Positions 1 through 13,212 of a DNA stretch of 64,000 bases are shown one piece after another. A program made the translations under genes and the position numbers. Position 1 is the first letter of the stretch; each line of letters starts with the position of its first letter. Below the pieces are notes generated by a model. The model ran no database searches, was not told where the DNA came from, and saw only the letters and a list, made by a program, of their open reading frames with translations. This DNA comes from an uncultured Prochlorococcus sp. (GTDB taxonomy: Bacteria > Cyanobacteriota > Cyanobacteriia > PCC-6307 > Cyanobiaceae), in assembly GCA_902535175.1 (NCBI GenBank), contig CACASR010000001.1, forward strand, positions 62,001-126,000, given 5' to 3'.

Positions 1-659
1 ATTGGTTCCAATAATTCATTAGTCCACATTCCAGATGCAACTATTAATTGATCAAAAATTACAGGTTGATTTCCTATTATTTCAAGAGAATTATTTTTGT
101 CGTCTATTCTTTTAATTCTGCAACCTTCGTAAATCTTATTACCATTATTTCTTATGATTTGAATCCAATTTTCAATCGCTTTATTACTTAATATTGCTCC
201 TGCACTTGGTTCAAAAAGTCCTACAAAATGGTCTTTAGGTTTTATAGGAAATCTTTCAGAAATCTTTTCAGATGTTAAAAACTCATAAGGTATATTTTGC
301 TCATCCATAACTTTCTGAGCACCAGGTATAGAACCTTCTATGGTTTCTTCATCCCATGATTCACCATAAAACAATAATCCATGTTCTTTTCTGAGAGAAT
401 ATTTTGATACTGATTCCTGCTCAGCCCATAATTTATTTGATTCTTTAGCAAGTTTGCATAGCACAGGATCAGAATACATTTCTCTATACATTCTGGACTC
501 TCCAAAACTACTCCCATCGCAATGAGCAAGTTTTTCAGATTCAAAAACAGCTACATTTTTTACTCCCATTTGACTTAATGATGCTGCTGCACTTAGGCCT
601 GCCATACCTCCGCCGATAATTGCCACATCAACATTTTCAGGGATATTAATATTATTCAT
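1..659 (-). CDS. FAD-dependent oxidoreductase, sarcosine oxidase / N-methyltryptophan oxidase-like (C-terminus off the window edge)
   Basis: Reverse-strand reading gives MNNINIPENVDVAIIGGGMAGLSAAASLSQMGVKNVAVFESEKL...SSFGESRMYREMYSDP..., a GxGxxG dinucleotide-binding motif plus an MSOX/MTOX-like 'G(E/D)xR' segment; open to the window edge. Confidence 0.8.
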   Translation of the reverse strand, partial: MNNINIPENVDVAIIGGGMAGLSAAASLSQMGVKNVAVFESEKLAHCDGSSFGESRMYREMYSDPVLCKLAKESNKLWAEQESVSKYSLRKEHGLLFYGESWDEETIEGSIPGAQKVMDEQNIPYEFLTSEKISERFPIKPKDHFVGLFEPSAGAILSNKAIENWIQIIRNNGNKIYEGCRIKRIDDKNNSLEIIGNQPVIFDQLIVASGMWTNELLEP

Positions 660-663
660 TAAT

Positions 664-1710
664 TTAAAATAACTCTCCTATGATTTCCTGCTTTTCATTT
701 TTTATTAATTCTAAAATTTCCTGAGAAGCTAATCCACTCTGCTCAAGAGATAGGTATGAAATACATTTTTTCTTTACTTTATTCTTTACAAAATCATATA
801 CCTTTTCAGGTGATGTTTTAGACCATTTAACCGGTGCATATCTTTCAATTGAATCAGCTATTACAGCTCCTGCATTAACAAGAGGATCAGGTACTATAAC
901 AACATTCGAATCTCTCAACTTTTGAGGAATCTTATCATTTTCAAAAGGAGCATTTGCAGCTGAAATAATAGCTTTAGAATTTAAAAGAAACTGAGAAATA
1001 TTTTTATTTATTAATCCCGAGATTGAGCAGGGGAGAATCACATCAAAATCCTTGCTGTACCAATTTTCGTCATTTCCAAGGGAAATAGCGCCCTCAATAT
1101 CAGTTTTTTCTAAATCAATATCAACAACATAAGTTTTTATATCTCTTTTAATTAATTCATAAGCGACTATACTGCCAACCGAGCCGCATCCATGAACCAG
1201 AACACCATTTGAAAGATCGCACTGAATACATTTCTCAAAAGCTTCAAAGGCTCCTATAACTCCCATCGCAGTGGCAGTACTTGCATCAACATTACTATTA
1301 ACAGCTGCAAGGACATGAGGAGTCAATTTATATAATTTTTCCATATCATTCACATCAGTATTCAAGTCACATCCGGTTATCATTCTTCCATCAAGATTTT
1401 CTAGAAGTTCAGATGTTACTGAGATAAGTTTTTCTTTCACTGATGAAATATCTGAAGATCTCGCAACAACTTTCCCGCCAGAAAAACCAGTGGAATATAG
1501 ATCATGTTTACACTTCATAAGATTCGCGAGTCTGAACCCATCCTGAAGACATTCCATATCAGTTTCATAATTAAGAAGCCTTAAACCTCCATTTGCAGGG
1601 TGATCGTCAGGTTTATTTTCAGCAACTATGAAAACTGATAATTCATCACTTATGTATTCAGCAAGTACACCTACTTCACTTTTTAATTGAGTCTGTAAAT
1701 TAACCATCAA
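664..1710 (-). CDS. Glu/Leu/Phe/Val dehydrogenase family (leucine dehydrogenase-like)
   Basis: HPANGGLRLL, LMKCKHDLYSTGFSGGKVV, TGCDLNTDVNDM and GCGSVGSIVAYEL match Leu/Phe dehydrogenase motif order. Confidence 0.8.
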   Translation of the reverse strand: MMVNLQTQLKSEVGVLAEYISDELSVFIVAENKPDDHPANGGLRLLNYETDMECLQDGFRLANLMKCKHDLYSTGFSGGKVVARSSDISSVKEKLISVTSELLENLDGRMITGCDLNTDVNDMEKLYKLTPHVLAAVNSNVDASTATAMGVIGAFEAFEKCIQCDLSNGVLVHGCGSVGSIVAYELIKRDIKTYVVDIDLEKTDIEGAISLGNDENWYSKDFDVILPCSISGLINKNISQFLLNSKAIISAANAPFENDKIPQKLRDSNVVIVPDPLVNAGAVIADSIERYAPVKWSKTSPEKVYDFVKNKVKKKCISYLSLEQSGLASQEILELIKNEKQEIIGELF

Positions 1711-2762
1711 ACTTTCTCCATCATCAGGTGATGCTCTACGTAATCAAGGCTCCAGTTTTCAGGATCAGATTTTATTCTGCTGGTTAATCGATCAAAAAGG
1801 ATATCAGCGGGATTAACATTTCTCGAATTATTCTCATCCAAAGCGGCGACGAAACTGTGTTTACTCCAACTACGAATGGTCTCCATCAAGCCAATGGAAA
1901 ATTCCTCAGTATTTTGAGTTTCCCTCCACTTTTCCTTGTAAGGACAGTCCACATAAACTGTTCGTTCCTTTAAAAGCCTCAATCCATTTTTATAAGCAGC
2001 AGAATCTTCATTGGTTAAAGGTGATGTAAATTCTTCAGGAGACTTATAGAAATTCTGAATTGTGCCATTTCTATATTCAATTTCGGTAATAAGATTTTCA
2101 TCGCGCAATTCCTTCCAGATTGAATGAATCTGATCATGAACATTTACAGTTTTTCCTCCGTTATTTCCGAGATATCTATCTTCGTAGTCTCTAGATAAAT
2201 TTACAGTAAGTAATTTACCTCCGACTTTAAGCTCTCTGCTCCTCATTTCAAGAATCTGATTCCAGTCAAACAATGCCTGTTCAAGAAAATCTTTTCTTGC
2301 CCTCTTGTTGTCTGAAGCAAGTACATGGGTATGATCCACAAGAGTTTCCACCTTCTTATTAAGCCAGTGCATTGCCGTGGCAGAGAAACCGAAATCAATG
2401 AAACTATTAGGGACAAGCTGATCATAAAAACTACCGGTACATATAAGGGTAGAGATTGATTCTTGACCGGAAGAATGGAGTGAGAGATTCTTTATAAGAG
2501 CCTGATTATCATTTGAATAAAGATCATTTCCGATGAGCGAGATCTGAGAAGTTGTCTTTCTTTCTTGAATATCCTTTATTATCTTTCCCCAGAATTCAGA
2601 AGCCGTTCCACCATCGGCCGCGCCATAATCCATGAGGAATAAATTATCTTCAATCTTTAAATCTGCGATACATTCACCTGCCCAGTCACTTGCCAGATCA
2701 ATGCAAAGCTTGGCCCCAGCGGTCTGCTCGCTGTAGCCCTTCGTCATTGCTATTACCATCAA
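1707..2762 (-). CDS. SABATH-like SAM-dependent carboxyl methyltransferase
   Basis: LFLMDYGAADGGTASEFW and FIDFGFSATAMHWLNKK resemble SABATH (PF03492) motifs; 4-nt overlap with the downstream dehydrogenase. Confidence 0.75.
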   Translation of the reverse strand: MMVIAMTKGYSEQTAGAKLCIDLASDWAGECIADLKIEDNLFLMDYGAADGGTASEFWGKIIKDIQERKTTSQISLIGNDLYSNDNQALIKNLSLHSSGQESISTLICTGSFYDQLVPNSFIDFGFSATAMHWLNKKVETLVDHTHVLASDNKRARKDFLEQALFDWNQILEMRSRELKVGGKLLTVNLSRDYEDRYLGNNGGKTVNVHDQIHSIWKELRDENLITEIEYRNGTIQNFYKSPEEFTSPLTNEDSAAYKNGLRLLKERTVYVDCPYKEKWRETQNTEEFSIGLMETIRSWSKHSFVAALDENNSRNVNPADILFDRLTSRIKSDPENWSLDYVEHHLMMEKV

Positions 2763-2820: not shown

Positions 2821-2862
2821 GATCTATAAAATGAGGTTTTAAAAAGCACAGTTTTATAGATC
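2821..2862. promoter_or_regulatory. Inverted repeat GATCTATAAAA-N20-TTTTATAGATC upstream of the methyltransferase operon
   Basis: Perfect 11-bp arms (2821-2831 / 2852-2862). Confidence 0.6.
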
Positions 2863-7212: not shown

Positions 7213-8403
7213 GTGACTTCTGAATCATCTCAAGATCAAGATTTTAAAAGAAAGCATCCCAGCGAAGGAATGGATGCTTTAGAAAAAGAATCAAAATTAC
7301 CTCTTAAAGGATGGGAAAATGAGGTTGCCCGAGCAAAGGAATATGGATTAGAAGGAGCAAAAAGTATTGTCGATAGAAATATATCTACATTTTCAAGAGG
7401 AGAATTACCCCATTTTGCAGGTATCAATACTTTCATGAAAGTTCCTTATGTTGAAAATGTAAATGAAGTGGGAAATTATGATGTTGCGATCGTTGGTGTT
7501 CCTCATGATTCTGGAACTACTTATAGACCAGGGACAAGATTCGGACCTCAAGGTATAAGAAAAATTTCTGCTCTTTATACTCCGTACAATTATGAAATGG
7601 GAGTGGATTTGAGAGAGCAGATTTCAATATGTGATGTAGGAGATATTTTTACAATTCCAGCAAATAATGAAAAAAGCTTTGATCAAATCTCGAAAGGGGT
7701 GGCTCATATTTTTGCTAGTGGTGCATTCCCAATTATTTTGGGTGGAGATCATTCAATAGGTTTCCCTACAGTTAGAGGAGTTTGTCGCCACTTAGGAAAT
7801 AAAAAAGTAGGAATCATTCATTTTGATAGACATGTAGATACTCAAGAAACAGATCTAGATGAAAGAATGCATACCTGTCCATGGTTTCATGCCACTAATA
7901 TGAAAAATGCACCTGCAAAGAATCTTGTTCAATTAGGAATTGGAGGCTGGCAAGTACCAAGAGAAGGAGTAAAAATTTGCAGGGAACGGAGTACGAATGT
8001 TTTAACAGTTACTGATATTTGTGAAATGGGGTTGAAGGAGGCCGCTGATTTTGCGATTGAAAAAGCTACTGATGGAACTGACTGTGTATACATTTCTTTT
8101 GATATTGATTGTATTGATGCTGGATTTGTCCCTGGAACTGGTTGGCCTGAACCTGGGGGTTTATTACCCCGAGAGGCATTAAAACTTTTGGAGTACATTA
8201 TTAGAAAAGTAAATGTATGTGGCATTGAGCTTGTTGAGGTTTCGCCTCCATATGATGTAAGTGATATGACAGCCTTATTAGCTACAAGAGTTATTTGTGA
8301 TTCAATTGCGCATCTTGTAGTAAGTGGTCAGCTTCCAAGAAAATCTAAACCAGAATGGATTTCATATAAATGCAATATGTCAGTTGATCAAAAATGGAGA
8401 TAG
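7213..8403 (+). CDS. gdmH: Ureohydrolase family, guanidine hydrolase (GdmH/Sll1077)-like
   Basis: Arginase-family motifs GGDHSIGFPT, FDRHVDTQETDLDERMHTCPWFHATNM, SFDIDCIDAGFVPGTGWPEPGG; directly followed by HypA/HypB-like genes; GTG start. Confidence 0.8.
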   Translation: MTSESSQDQDFKRKHPSEGMDALEKESKLPLKGWENEVARAKEYGLEGAKSIVDRNISTFSRGELPHFAGINTFMKVPYVENVNEVGNYDVAIVGVPHDSGTTYRPGTRFGPQGIRKISALYTPYNYEMGVDLREQISICDVGDIFTIPANNEKSFDQISKGVAHIFASGAFPIILGGDHSIGFPTVRGVCRHLGNKKVGIIHFDRHVDTQETDLDERMHTCPWFHATNMKNAPAKNLVQLGIGGWQVPREGVKICRERSTNVLTVTDICEMGLKEAADFAIEKATDGTDCVYISFDIDCIDAGFVPGTGWPEPGGLLPREALKLLEYIIRKVNVCGIELVEVSPPYDVSDMTALLATRVICDSIAHLVVSGQLPRKSKPEWISYKCNMSVDQKWR

Positions 8404-8409
8404 ATTTTC

Positions 8410-8766
8410 GTGCATGAAGTAGATATGACAAAATGCCTTATTCTTTCCATGGAAGAGTGGGCAGAGAAAAAAAATAAAAAAAAGATAGTTGTTGAAAAGA
8501 TTAATCTTAAGATTGGCGAATTTACTTGCGTAGAACCAATATCATTAATTAATACTTTTAATGCTGCAGTATTGGGTTCTTGGTTAGATTCCTCTGAGAT
8601 TACAATTGAGATAATACCTTTTGAAGGGAAATGCTCTAAATGCAATAGATTATATTTTCCAAAGAAAGAGAATGGATATAAATCTCCATGTTGCAATTTT
8701 AATTTAGAGGAAATTATTAGTGGGAGGGAATTAAAAATCGCATCTATTGATTTTAAAGAAAAGTAG
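8410..8766 (+). CDS. HypA-like nickel metallochaperone
   Basis: MHE N-terminus and CSKCN...CCN zinc site. Confidence 0.8.
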   Translation: MHEVDMTKCLILSMEEWAEKKNKKKIVVEKINLKIGEFTCVEPISLINTFNAAVLGSWLDSSEITIEIIPFEGKCSKCNRLYFPKKENGYKSPCCNFNLEEIISGRELKIASIDFKEK

Positions 8767-8806
8767 AAATTTAGTATCTAGAATAAAAACGTATTTTCAA
8801 ATATAA

Positions 8807-9490
8807 ATGCATTTACCAATTTCAGACAAAATTGAATTAAATATTCTTCATCAAAATAGTCATCAAGCTGAGAAAAATAAAGTTAAGTTTAATAATTATA
8901 ATTTGCTTTGCTTGAACATAATGAGTAGTCCTGGTGCAGGAAAAACGAGATTACTTGAAATAACTCTAGAAGATCTTTCAAAAAAATTTCACAGTGCTGT
9001 TTTAGAGGGTGATATGACCACTAATCTTGATGCGGCAAGATTAGAAAAATTAAATATTCCAGTAGTACCAATTACAACTGGAAGAGCATGCCATCTCGAT
9101 GCAAATATGGTTAGTGGAGGTTTGAAATTACTAGAAAAAAAAATAAATCCTGATTTACTAGATATTTTGTTAGTGGAAAATGTTGGAAATTTAGTTTGTC
9201 CTGCAGAATTTGAGATTGGAGAACATTTTAAAGTTGCACTTTTAAGTATTACCGAAGGTGAGGATAAACCTTTAAAATATCCAATAATGTTTAGAGAAGC
9301 AGATTTAATTTTGATAACTAAAGTTGATTTGTTACCTTATTTGAATTTTGATATTAACGAATTAAAATCGAACATAACTTCAACTAACCCTAAGGCAGAT
9401 GTGATAGAAATTTCTTCGGTAACCAAGTCTGGATTCGATTTATGGCAAGATTGGATTAGTAAAAAGATTCTGAAATTTAAAAATAATTGA
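8807..9490 (+). CDS. HypB-like GTPase nickel chaperone
   Basis: SSPGAGKTRLLE, EGDMTTNLDAARL, TTGRACHLDANMV motifs. Confidence 0.9.
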   Translation: MHLPISDKIELNILHQNSHQAEKNKVKFNNYNLLCLNIMSSPGAGKTRLLEITLEDLSKKFHSAVLEGDMTTNLDAARLEKLNIPVVPITTGRACHLDANMVSGGLKLLEKKINPDLLDILLVENVGNLVCPAEFEIGEHFKVALLSITEGEDKPLKYPIMFREADLILITKVDLLPYLNFDINELKSNITSTNPKADVIEISSVTKSGFDLWQDWISKKILKFKNN

Positions 9491-9520
9491 TATTGATTAA
9501 GTAAAAGTAATCTCTTAAAA

Positions 9521-9534
9521 GTATCAGTCATTAC
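9521..9534 (+). promoter_or_regulatory. Candidate NtcA-binding site GTA-N8-TAC
   Basis: GTATCAGTCATTAC 57 bp before the transporter ORF. Confidence 0.45.
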
Positions 9535-9590
9535 AACTTTAGATTTGCTTTTTCTTAAGTATTGATAGTACGTAATATTTTTTTCCAAAA

Positions 9591-10589
9591 ATGTTTAAAA
9601 AATTGAGAGTTTTTGTTGCCTCTTTGCTGGCTCTAATATTAGCGATTTCATTAAGTACACTATCAAGTCCTGCAGCTCCAAAAGGTGAACCAATCACTTT
9701 GGGATACAGTAACTGGGCAGGATGGTGGCCCTGGGCGATAGCTGTTGATCAAAAAATGTTTGAAAAAAATGGAGTTAATGTTCAGATGAAATGGTTTGAT
9801 GGATATGTTCAATCCATGGAAACTTTTGCTGCTGGTAAAATTGATGGAAATTCGCAGACTCTTAATGATACTATTTCGTTCTTGCCAGGAGAGAATGGAG
9901 GGGAAGTAGTTGTTTTAGTTAATGATAATTCTGCGGGGAATGACCAAATAATTGCAGATAAATCAATTAAAAGTGTTGCTGATTTGAAAGGTAAAACAGT
10001 AGCAGTAGAAGAAGGTGTTGTGGATGATTTTTTACTTGTTTTAGCTCTGAATGATGTCGGATTAACTCGAGATGATGTCATTATTAAAGGTCTCCCAACT
10101 GATCAGGCTGCAACTGCATTCGCAGCAGGAAAAGTTGATGCAGTTGGTGCATTCCCTCCATTTACAGGAACTGCAATGAAGAGGCCTGGAGCAAGAGTTA
10201 TTGCTAGTTCAAAAGATTATCCCGGTGCAATCCCAGATTTATTAGCTGTAAGCGGAGATTTGATTTCTGAAAGACCAGATGATGTTCAAAAAATTGTTAA
10301 AACATGGTGGGATGTAAGAGAATTCATGGAAAAAAATCCAAGAAAATCTGAAAAGATTATGGCAAAGCGAGCTGGGATCCCAACACGCGAATACAAACAA
10401 TATAAGGGTGGCACTAGGTTCTTTTCTTTGGAAGAAAATTTAGAAGCTTTTAGTGATGGGTTCGGGATGAAACATATGCCTTATGCAGCGAAACAAATGG
10501 CAGACTTTATGGTAAAGGTAGGATTTATTCCTGAAAAACCAGATATGAGTAAATTATTTGACTCTTCGTTTGTTAAAAACATTAGTTAA
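9591..10589 (+). CDS. ABC transporter substrate-binding protein (nitrate/taurine/NMT1-like)
   Basis: Signal peptide, LGYSNWAGWWPWAIAVDQKMFEKNGV... typical of the family. Confidence 0.85.
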   Translation: MFKKLRVFVASLLALILAISLSTLSSPAAPKGEPITLGYSNWAGWWPWAIAVDQKMFEKNGVNVQMKWFDGYVQSMETFAAGKIDGNSQTLNDTISFLPGENGGEVVVLVNDNSAGNDQIIADKSIKSVADLKGKTVAVEEGVVDDFLLVLALNDVGLTRDDVIIKGLPTDQAATAFAAGKVDAVGAFPPFTGTAMKRPGARVIASSKDYPGAIPDLLAVSGDLISERPDDVQKIVKTWWDVREFMEKNPRKSEKIMAKRAGIPTREYKQYKGGTRFFSLEENLEAFSDGFGMKHMPYAAKQMADFMVKVGFIPEKPDMSKLFDSSFVKNIS

Positions 10590-10605
10590 TTAATACAAAA
10601 TTAAA

Positions 10606-11424
10606 ATGGTTAGTTCGAAATTAATCAAGGGGGATAAATATTTTTTATCCCTCTTTTCATTTGGTAGTGAACCGAAAAAATTAAATAAAATTTTTCTTCA
10701 AATAGCCTCACTTTTGCTTCCCCTTTTAATTTGGACATTAATTTGTCAATTAAAACTTGTGAGTGAAATGTTTTTACCATCGCCTTTAGCGGTCTTTTAT
10801 TCTCTTTTAGATATGGCTGAAAGTGGAATATTATTTGAAGATATTTTTGCTAGTACTGGCAGGGTATTTGCTGGTTTTATAATTGCGACAATTTTTTCAG
10901 TTCCTTTAGGAATTTTAATGGGTTCTTTCCCTTCTTTTTGTGCTTTATTTGAACCATTAATTGCAATGCTTAGATATATGCCTGCAGCTGCTTTTTCTCC
11001 TTTACTTATTATTTATTTAGGCATTGAAGAGGCTCCAAAAATCGCATTAATATTCCTTGGGACCGTTTACTTTAATGTTTTGATGGTTATGGATTCAGTG
11101 AAATTTGTACCCAAAGAACTCATTGAAACAACGCTTACTTTAGGAGGAAATTCAAAAGATTTATTGATCAGAGTAATAGCCAGATATTCATTGCCAAGTA
11201 TTATTGATACTTTAAGAATTAATATTGCTACTTCATGGAATTTAGTTATTGTTGCAGAGTTAATTGCAGCAGAAGTTGGTTTAGGTAAAAGGATTCAACT
11301 GGCTCAAAGATTTTTCCGTACAGATCAAATATTTGCAGAATTAATAGTTCTTGGATTAATTGGTTTTGCTTTGGATATGAGTTTTAGATTTCTACTAAGA
11401 AGTACTTGTAAATGGGCTGTTTAA
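10606..11424 (+). CDS. ABC transporter permease
   Basis: BPD transporter permease, SsuC/TauC-like, follows SBP. Confidence 0.9.
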   Translation: MVSSKLIKGDKYFLSLFSFGSEPKKLNKIFLQIASLLLPLLIWTLICQLKLVSEMFLPSPLAVFYSLLDMAESGILFEDIFASTGRVFAGFIIATIFSVPLGILMGSFPSFCALFEPLIAMLRYMPAAAFSPLLIIYLGIEEAPKIALIFLGTVYFNVLMVMDSVKFVPKELIETTLTLGGNSKDLLIRVIARYSLPSIIDTLRINIATSWNLVIVAELIAAEVGLGKRIQLAQRFFRTDQIFAELIVLGLIGFALDMSFRFLLRSTCKWAV

Positions 11425-12186
11425 ATGAAATTAGATGTTAATAATATTTCAAAATATTTTGGGGAAGGTTCAAATAGAAAAAAGGCTATCGAGGGGATAA
11501 ATTTTTCAATAAGCTCTGGCGAATTTAAAACTCTTGTTGGGAGCTCTGGATCAGGTAAAAGTACTATATTGAGGATTATTGCTGGGCTTGAAAGTCCATC
11601 TAGAGGGAACGTAAAAGTAGATGGGAAAATAGTCAGTGGACCAGGATTAGATAGAGGAATGGTTTTTCAGAAATATAGTCTTTTCCCTTGGCTCACTGCA
11701 TCTGAAAATATTGCATTTGGAATGAATTTAAATTCTTATAAACTGAAAGAAATAAAATTTAGAACATCTTATTTATTAGAAGTAGTAGGCCTTCAGGACT
11801 CTGGAAACAAGTATCCAAAAGAATTATCTGGAGGAATGCAACAAAGGATTGCAATAGCAAGAGCTCTAGCGACTAACCCCAAGATCCTACTTTTAGATGA
11901 ACCTTTTGGAGCCTTGGACTTGCAGATAAGAGAATCTATGCAGAAATTTCTCTATGAATTATGGAAAAAAACTTCATTAACAGTTTTACTCATAACACAT
12001 GATATCGAAGAAGCATTGGCTCTCTCTCAGCAAATATGTATTTTGGCACCTAATCCTGGAAGAATCATAAAAGAAGTTAGTGTAGATTTACAGAAAGGAG
12101 ATTTAGATAAATTGAAACTTGATTCTGATTTCTCAAAATTAAGATATGAGTTATCTGATTTTTTAAGGGGCCTCCAAAAAAATTAA
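11425..12186 (+). CDS. ABC transporter ATP-binding protein
   Basis: Walker A GSSGSGKST, signature LSGGMQQR, Walker B ILLLDEPFG. Confidence 0.95.
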   Translation: MKLDVNNISKYFGEGSNRKKAIEGINFSISSGEFKTLVGSSGSGKSTILRIIAGLESPSRGNVKVDGKIVSGPGLDRGMVFQKYSLFPWLTASENIAFGMNLNSYKLKEIKFRTSYLLEVVGLQDSGNKYPKELSGGMQQRIAIARALATNPKILLLDEPFGALDLQIRESMQKFLYELWKKTSLTVLLITHDIEEALALSQQICILAPNPGRIIKEVSVDLQKGDLDKLKLDSDFSKLRYELSDFLRGLQKN

Positions 12187-12189
12187 ATA

Positions 12190-13212
12190 ATGTCAACTAG
12201 TTTTTTGCCTACTTGGCTTTATAACGACAAAATAATTTTTGAACTTGAACTAGATAACTATTCAAAAAATTATTGGCACCCATTGATTTTTATAGGAGAA
12301 ATCAAACCTGGCGAAATATTGGAAAAAAAATTCTTTAATCAATCATTATTAATCTTGTGTTCGGAAAATAATTTAATAACTGTTTTTAAAAATAGATGTC
12401 CTCATCGTGGTTCAAAATTGTGTTTGCCAAAAACAAAATTAAATCCTTCTAAAAATATTTTTTGTCCCTACCATGGCTGGACTTTTGATAGTTTTGGCAA
12501 ACTTAAAACCTTGCCATTAAAGTACGATTTTGAGAAAAAAATAGAAACGGAGGATTATTTTTTAGAAAAAGTTAACTCTTTAATAAATGGACCTTTAATT
12601 TGGATTAATTTCAGTAATAAACCAATATCTATAGATGATCAAATTGAGCTTGTTGGAAGAAAATGTAATGATGATTGGGATATGAATTACAGCATTTTTT
12701 CTGAATTTTCTGATACCTTAAATTGTAATTGGAAAATTGCCCATGATAATACACTGGATGATTATCATGTAGCAATAGCTCATAAAGATACACTACATAA
12801 AGAACAAGGTCCAATTAAAAATTACAGGTATTTCTTCAGTGAATTTTGTAATGTACTTGTTACCCCTCTAAGGAGTAAAGGAAATCTATATACCTTTGGA
12901 TTACTCCCATGGACCCATCTAATAATCTGGCCTGGTAAAGGGATTGTTTTAATAAATTATCTTCCTAAAAATATTAATCAGTGTATTATTGAACTTAAAT
13001 TAGCTTCTGCTTCTTTAGGTGAAAATGATTTAGAAAATTGGAAAAAAAGTATATTGGAATTTCTTGGGGAAGATAAAGTTATTGTTGAATCAGTTCATAA
13101 GTCTTATCTGGAAAATTTTACACTTGGTCCGCCTAATAGACTTGAACAAAGGATTATACACTGGCAAAATATATATAAAGAGTTTCTAAATGCATCGGGT
13201 ATTACTTTCTAA
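12190..13212 (+). CDS. Rieske [2Fe-2S] non-heme oxygenase alpha subunit-like
   Basis: CPHRG...CPYHGW Rieske ligands; NWKIAHDNTLDDYHVAIAH mononuclear iron motif. Confidence 0.85.
   Translation: MSTSFLPTWLYNDKIIFELELDNYSKNYWHPLIFIGEIKPGEILEKKFFNQSLLILCSENNLITVFKNRCPHRGSKLCLPKTKLNPSKNIFCPYHGWTFDSFGKLKTLPLKYDFEKKIETEDYFLEKVNSLINGPLIWINFSNKPISIDDQIELVGRKCNDDWDMNYSIFSEFSDTLNCNWKIAHDNTLDDYHVAIAHKDTLHKEQGPIKNYRYFFSEFCNVLVTPLRSKGNLYTFGLLPWTHLIIWPGKGIVLINYLPKNINQCIIELKLASASLGENDLENWKKSILEFLGEDKVIVESVHKSYLENFTLGPPNRLEQRIIHWQNIYKEFLNASGITF

Follow-up and report, generated by a model that had tools for sequence, protein, structure and literature searches.

Genes at the Locus

The window considered here is a stretch of 64,000 nucleotides from a 1.52-Mb draft genome (86% complete) of a high-light Prochlorococcus, whose nearest named relative is MIT 9401, with 98-99% protein identity. 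Three genes run on the minus strand at its left end, and these are collected in Table 1 together with the neighboring features.

A preliminary description of the window had reported three minus-strand open reading frames in this region (at 1707..2762, 664..1710 and 3..659, the last of which is left open by the window edge). All three are real, as is the 4-nt gap at 660-663, between the stop codon of the dehydrogenase gene and the start of the oxidase gene. The 4-nt overlap reported for the other two genes holds if the dehydrogenase is taken to start at TTG. Both of the TTG starts, however, have an ATG one codon downstream, and the ATG reading is the better one in each case. With it, the junction between the methyltransferase and dehydrogenase genes becomes TGATG, a 1-nt overlap, with the methyltransferase stop codon (TGA) at 1709-1707. 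The suggestion in the same description that the contig be extended leftward proved fruitful: the oxidase gene, which passes the left window edge by 528 bases (residues beyond 219 lie outside the window), is complete in the extended contig and is followed on the same strand by a gene for a protein with a helix-hairpin-helix (HHH) domain. The latter gene is found beside the oxidase gene in HLII-type carriers of the three genes and in one further carrier (G270), not in HNLC or Synechococcus carriers, and probably lies outside the proposed homarine pathway discussed below.

Table 1. Features of the window and its left flank. Negative positions lie to the left of the window; L003 is the extended contig.
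Feature	Position	Strand	Remarks
SABATH-family SAM-dependent methyltransferase (MT)	1707..2759	-	350 aa from ATG 2759; 351 aa from TTG 2762
ELFV (Glu/Leu/Phe/Val) dehydrogenase	664..1707	-	347 aa from ATG 1707; 348 aa from TTG 1710
NikD/MSOX-type FAD amine oxidase	1..659	-	codons 1-219 of 395, remainder left of window; complete gene (395 aa) at -528..659 (L003:7472-8659)
HHH-domain protein	-1287 to -577	-	236 aa; 3' of oxidase; L003 6713-7423
Inverted repeat, 11 bp (GATCTATAAAA)	2821-2862		20-nt spacer; upstream of MT
Ureohydrolase and transporter cluster	7213-13212	+	agmatinase/guanidinase-like ureohydrolase, HypB-type nickel chaperone, SsuA-like ABC substrate-binding protein, permease, ATPase, Rieske oxygenase

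The families to which the preliminary description had assigned the three proteins are borne out, all with scores above the respective cut-offs: the methyltransferase matches PF03492, the family on which its designation as a SABATH enzyme depended, with 82.6 bits (E-value 4e-23, cut-off 29.8), the dehydrogenase matches PF00208 with 49.5 bits (cut-off 23.4), and the oxidase matches PF01266 (DAO) with 127.8 bits (cut-off 27.9).

Distribution and Linkage

Of 300 Cyanobiaceae genomes, 53 contain an orthologue of the methyltransferase, and one more yielded a match that is no more than a distant SABATH gene (E-value 2e-8). The profile of the oxidase finds exactly the same 53 genomes, and that of the dehydrogenase finds those 53 and a lone copy in one other. 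In the loci that were fetched, the genes lie in the order methyltransferase, dehydrogenase, oxidase, all in the same orientation and either closely spaced or slightly overlapping, and the coordinates of the matches in the remaining carriers agree with this order. Pairwise protein distances among the three genes are correlated at 0.975-0.980, in keeping with coevolution. Co-occurrence and adjacency in a single order to this degree are not a matter of chance. They support the earlier supposition that the three genes form one transcript, and the survey of neighborhoods that had been proposed as a check finds the genes located together in the carriers.

Fifty of the carriers lie outside the genus of the window (genomes of 1.5-3.3 Mb, mostly of Synechococcus size) and three within it, where many complete genomes are without the operon. 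Among the carriers with names are MIT 9401, MIT 9201 and HNLC1; a scan of named genomes with one dehydrogenase sequence gave matches only in Prochlorococcus. Beyond the Cyanobiaceae, the search covered 341 genomes sampled from the whole phylum and brought up no other close dehydrogenase orthologue outside the family.

Some Cyanobiaceae genomes depart from the common pattern. The lone dehydrogenase orthologue (in the 2.9-Mb genome G030, L096 8549-9673) retains the motifs NxGGLR and NAGAVIADSIE, and no methyltransferase or oxidase partner lies nearby. In two carriers, G242 (L062 6198-7231) and G239 (L063 6578-7632), a single frameshift divides the methyltransferase gene of an otherwise intact operon. 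The split could be either a real loss or a sequencing error; a real loss would leave these strains without the methylation step.

The Methyltransferase

The solved structure closest to the methyltransferase is that of a bacterial fatty acid O-methyltransferase (5f2k), followed by those of plant SABATH enzymes. With these (the plant enzymes including salicylate, loganate and xanthine methyltransferases) it shares the PF03492 family and its motifs, but the best score against any of them is only about 80 bits. SABATH enzymes methylate either carboxylates or ring nitrogens, and the sequence does not decide which. I propose that the protein is a picolinate N-methyltransferase and acts last in the pathway.

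A SABATH enzyme with 30% identity was found by tblastn against plasmids, on pCB3171_3 of Rhizobium sp. CB3171 (L094 9226-14339; PF03492, 120.6 bits). Its neighbors between the flanking transposons are a B12-binding/radical SAM-like gene, a transporter gene of the EamA/EmrE type and a gene for a DAO-family oxidase, and the row may encode a further small-molecule pathway. As a different system, this locus was set aside as support for the cyanobacterial operon. A transcript annotated as "SAM dependent carboxyl methyltransferase (crtF)" increases in Synechococcus under iron chelation (PMC9723758), and it may or may not be the methyltransferase considered here.

The Dehydrogenase

The structural homologues of the dehydrogenase are leucine and tryptophan dehydrogenases (LeuDH and TrpDH). 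The catalytic residues K67, K79 and D114 (K68, K80 and D115 in LeuDH) are present in all of 79 orthologue sequences, a set in which some genomes are entered twice, and N39 and D285 are likewise invariant in 79 of 79. I take these last two positions to be equivalent to L40 and V294 of LeuDH and to K89 and S380 of GluDH, and to be those that read the side chain of the substrate. In a MAFFT alignment with 13 homologues resembling Leu and Trp dehydrogenases, the column of D285 is Val in all 13, and that of N39 is Leu or Met in 12, with a gap in the other. The hydrophobic side-chain pocket of Leu and Trp dehydrogenases, formed by Leu/Met and Val, has thus not been kept, Asn and Asp standing in its place. 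The assignment of D285 is good but not certain, because HMMER aligns this region differently, placing a two-residue gap there.

An Asp in the pocket would suit a basic side chain, that of lysine above all, and the pair N39 and D285 is consistent with lysine as the substrate. The proposal is that the enzyme is an NAD+-dependent L-lysine 2-dehydrogenase and catalyzes the first step. The best NCBIfam match, to the tryptophan dehydrogenase ScyB (NF035922), reaches 107 bits, far under the curated cut-off of 600, and that assignment was rejected. ScyB and the leucine dehydrogenases have the ELFV fold and the catalytic Lys, Lys and Asp in common with the enzyme; they differ from it in the pocket, where they have Met/Leu and Val. 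AlphaFold2 models of the oxidase and the dehydrogenase, made from shallow alignments, had pLDDT values of 36 and 45, and both were discarded.

The Oxidase

The preliminary description had read the third gene as an enzyme of the MTOX/MSOX type, oxidizing an N-methyl amino acid, and this turns out not to be the best reading. A profile built from 23 orthologues of the oxidase, compared with solved structures, scores 149.7 bits with NikD, 130.4 with MSOX and 109.1 with MTOX, although the single sequence, used without a profile, places MSOX slightly above NikD. NikD is therefore taken as the nearest solved relative. The curated NCBIfam models for MTOX (NF008425, 185.1 of 257 bits) and sarcosine oxidase (TIGR01377, 149.8 of 479.65 bits) both remain below their cut-offs, and on that ground the assignment as MTOX was rejected.

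Four residues of the oxidase, R59, E108, Y264 and K361, align with R53, E101, Y258 and K358 of NikD, which presumably are functional residues there, and do not vary among 50 sequences. Around E101 the two proteins have a segment recognizably in common (ETIEGSIPG in the present oxidase, VTNEGQISG in NikD). K280 and D284 are also invariant in the 50 sequences. By way of the motif K/R-x-G-x-D/H, K280 is probably the counterpart of the oxygen-activating Lys265 of MSOX, and by K/R-x-G-x-D, D284 is probably that of D276 in NikD; both matches rest on reading the motif, because the HMMER alignment differs there, setting D284 two columns away.

The oxidase also differs from its relatives. At the position of the Cys that binds flavin covalently in NikD and MSOX there is a serine (Ser330), with no Cys nearby, in 50 of 50 sequences, so the flavin should be non-covalent, a real difference from both enzymes. 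NikD W355 is replaced by Gln. The function I propose for the protein, predicted from its likeness to NikD, is that of a piperideine-2-carboxylate oxidase in the second step.

An Associated Transporter

In loci of the Synechococcus type, the oxidase gene is followed by one for a BCCT transporter (PF02028, 420-430 bits), which was out of reach of the preliminary description, as it does not lie within the window. The distance to the oxidase gene is 35 nt in one such locus (L044) and 5 nt in another (L048), at a different chromosomal site. In a family search of the 300 Cyanobiaceae genomes, BCCT genes were found in 51, every one a carrier of the operon, with the gene adjacent in 50 and elsewhere in one (G270), and in none of the 247 non-carriers; these counts refer to related genomes rather than to independent events. 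Every one of the 50 carriers from outside the genus of the window has the gene directly downstream of the oxidase gene. Among the HNLC-type Prochlorococcus carriers, it lies away from the operon in three of four genomes, and the family search found none in the window genome (86% complete), MIT 9401 or MIT 9201. In transmembrane segment 8, the protein has Phe and Tyr at the positions of what I take to be Trp374 and Trp377 of BetP.

BCCT proteins transport betaines and related onium solutes. By this knowledge of the family, a partner of this kind suggests that the product of the operon is a quaternary zwitterion.

The transporter leads to a probable earlier sighting of the operon. In Synechococcus WH8102, the BCCT gene SYNW0229 ("BetT") is first in a predicted five-gene operon, SYNW0229-0233 (PMC2874817). 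Other Synechococcus genomes have the layout BCCT, oxidase, dehydrogenase, methyltransferase and a Ham1-type gene, which matches SYNW0229 with its four partners. By this match SYNW0229-0233 is very probably the operon considered here, and I infer from it that SYNW0230-0232 are the oxidase, dehydrogenase and methyltransferase genes. Where they discuss SYNW0229, the authors suggest that its partners might be missing subunits of the transporter, in contrast to the biosynthetic role suggested here. The same article places the genes for synthesis of glycine betaine (SYNW1913-1914) elsewhere, beside a ProVWX of their own (SYNW1915-1917).

A Proposed Route from Lysine to Homarine

The families of the proteins, the strict linkage of their genes, the conserved residues and the association with a transporter are established by the results above. 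The reading that I prefer, with a probability of roughly 0.7, is that the operon makes homarine (N-methylpicolinate), a compatible solute of the betaine type, from L-lysine. The dehydrogenase would remove the alpha-amino group of L-lysine oxidatively, with NAD+, to give 2-oxo-6-aminohexanoate, which would close spontaneously to delta1-piperideine-2-carboxylate. The NikD-like flavoenzyme would convert this ring to picolinate by a four-electron aromatizing oxidation, using O2 and releasing H2O2, and the SABATH enzyme would methylate the ring nitrogen of picolinate with SAM. The product of the fourth gene in Synechococcus, the BCCT transporter, would take up or recapture homarine. Every substrate and product of the three enzymes named here is what I infer. 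The preliminary description left substrate and direction open. Its idea of genes that make a methylated derivative of an amino acid is supported, whereas its MTOX-like reading of the oxidase is not the best one; the methyl group is more likely to be added last, to picolinate, than to be taken off.

The chemistry from lysine to picolinate is already known. In the biosynthesis of nikkomycin, an antibiotic of Streptomyces, a 2-aminotransferase converts L-lysine to piperideine-2-carboxylate and an MSOX-type enzyme converts that to picolinic acid (PMC4021061). This branch (NikC/SanL followed by NikD) resembles the proposed route in its intermediates and in its flavoenzyme. It differs in that an aminotransferase stands at the entry, where the present operon has a dehydrogenase, in the covalent-flavin Cys of NikD, in leading to a picolinate-CoA ligase, where the operon has an N-methyltransferase and a BCCT transporter, and in belonging to an antibiotic cluster rather than to marine cyanobacteria. 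What is new is the combination: the entry by a dehydrogenase, the methylation step and the transporter.

Homarine has been detected in both Synechococcus strains tested, at corrected concentrations of up to 18 mM in WH8102, the richer strain, and about 0.2 mM in WH7803 (PMC8269262; correction PMC10134881). The amounts in both papers on homarine were later corrected downwards. Both state that the biosynthetic pathway and genes are not known (PMC8269262; Boysen et al., PMC8269247), and the route they cite runs from tryptophan via quinolinate. I found no published genes for homarine biosynthesis in the open-access PMC literature. Several points weigh against the homarine reading: the origin assumed in print is this other one, SABATH enzymes can also methylate carboxylates, the presence of the genes does not account for homarine being roughly 100 times more abundant in WH8102 than in WH7803, the window genome, MIT 9401 and MIT 9201 lack a BCCT transporter, and the oxidase has Ser330 for Cys and Gln for W355 of NikD.

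Of the other readings, the one that survives best, though unlikely, takes ornithine or a different basic amino acid as the starting point for the first two enzymes, which would form a pyrrole-type or related ring acid by way of delta1-pyrroline-2-carboxylate; the methylated product of the SABATH enzyme would then not be homarine but possibly a methyl ester. The Asp in the pocket would suit ornithine too, O-methylation of carboxylates is common among SABATH enzymes, and the solved structure closest to the present one is that of an O-methyltransferase. Against this, NikD acts on a six-membered ring derived from lysine (PMC4021061), the BCCT partner argues for a quaternary zwitterion, not an ester, and homarine is known from these organisms.

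Less likely still is a catabolic role in nitrogen salvage, in which the transporter imports an N-methylated amino acid or betaine, the oxidase demethylates or oxidizes it and the dehydrogenase deaminates the product, leaving the methyltransferase a side role. BCCT proteins are mostly importers, and the family matches of the oxidase include MSOX and N-methyltryptophan oxidase. Yet neither curated cut-off is reached, the orthologue profile favors NikD, some carriers have no BCCT transporter at all, and the strict retention of the methyltransferase in the unit suits synthesis better than salvage. A pathway in which tryptophan or phenylalanine is deaminated to an oxo acid and a carboxylate is methylated, as in auxin-like or scytonemin-related metabolism, is very improbable: ScyB is the top NCBIfam match of the dehydrogenase, and plant SABATH enzymes include indole-3-acetate methyltransferases, but the ScyB score is a small part of its cut-off, the pocket has Asn and Asp, and neither the NikD-like oxidase nor the transporter would have a role.

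To return to homarine, it is an abundant metabolite of the ocean. The odds are somewhat in favor of this being the first genetically defined route to it in any organism, as judged by the open-access literature, comprising a cyclizing L-lysine 2-dehydrogenase, a NikD-like aromatizing oxidase that lacks the covalent-flavin Cys, as well as a bacterial N-methyltransferase of the SABATH family, in marine Synechococcus and some Prochlorococcus. If so, the operon would provide gene markers for mapping homarine production in metagenomes and metatranscriptomes and would predict which Prochlorococcus and Synechococcus make the compound, and in cyanobacteria the route from lysine would supersede the assumed origin from tryptophan and quinolinate.

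Other Features of the Window

The inverted repeat upstream of the methyltransferase gene is not kept in the close relatives MIT 9401 and MIT 9201, and it was dropped as a relevant element. A blastn search of the region against phages gave no match. Farther along the window, the ureohydrolase of the plus-strand cluster matches the agmatinase model TIGR01230 with 182 bits (cut-off 174.3), and the Rieske oxygenase weakly resembles glycine betaine monooxygenase (83.7 of 670 bits). My guess is that this cluster is a nickel-dependent system for hydrolysis of guanidine or an alkylguanidine.
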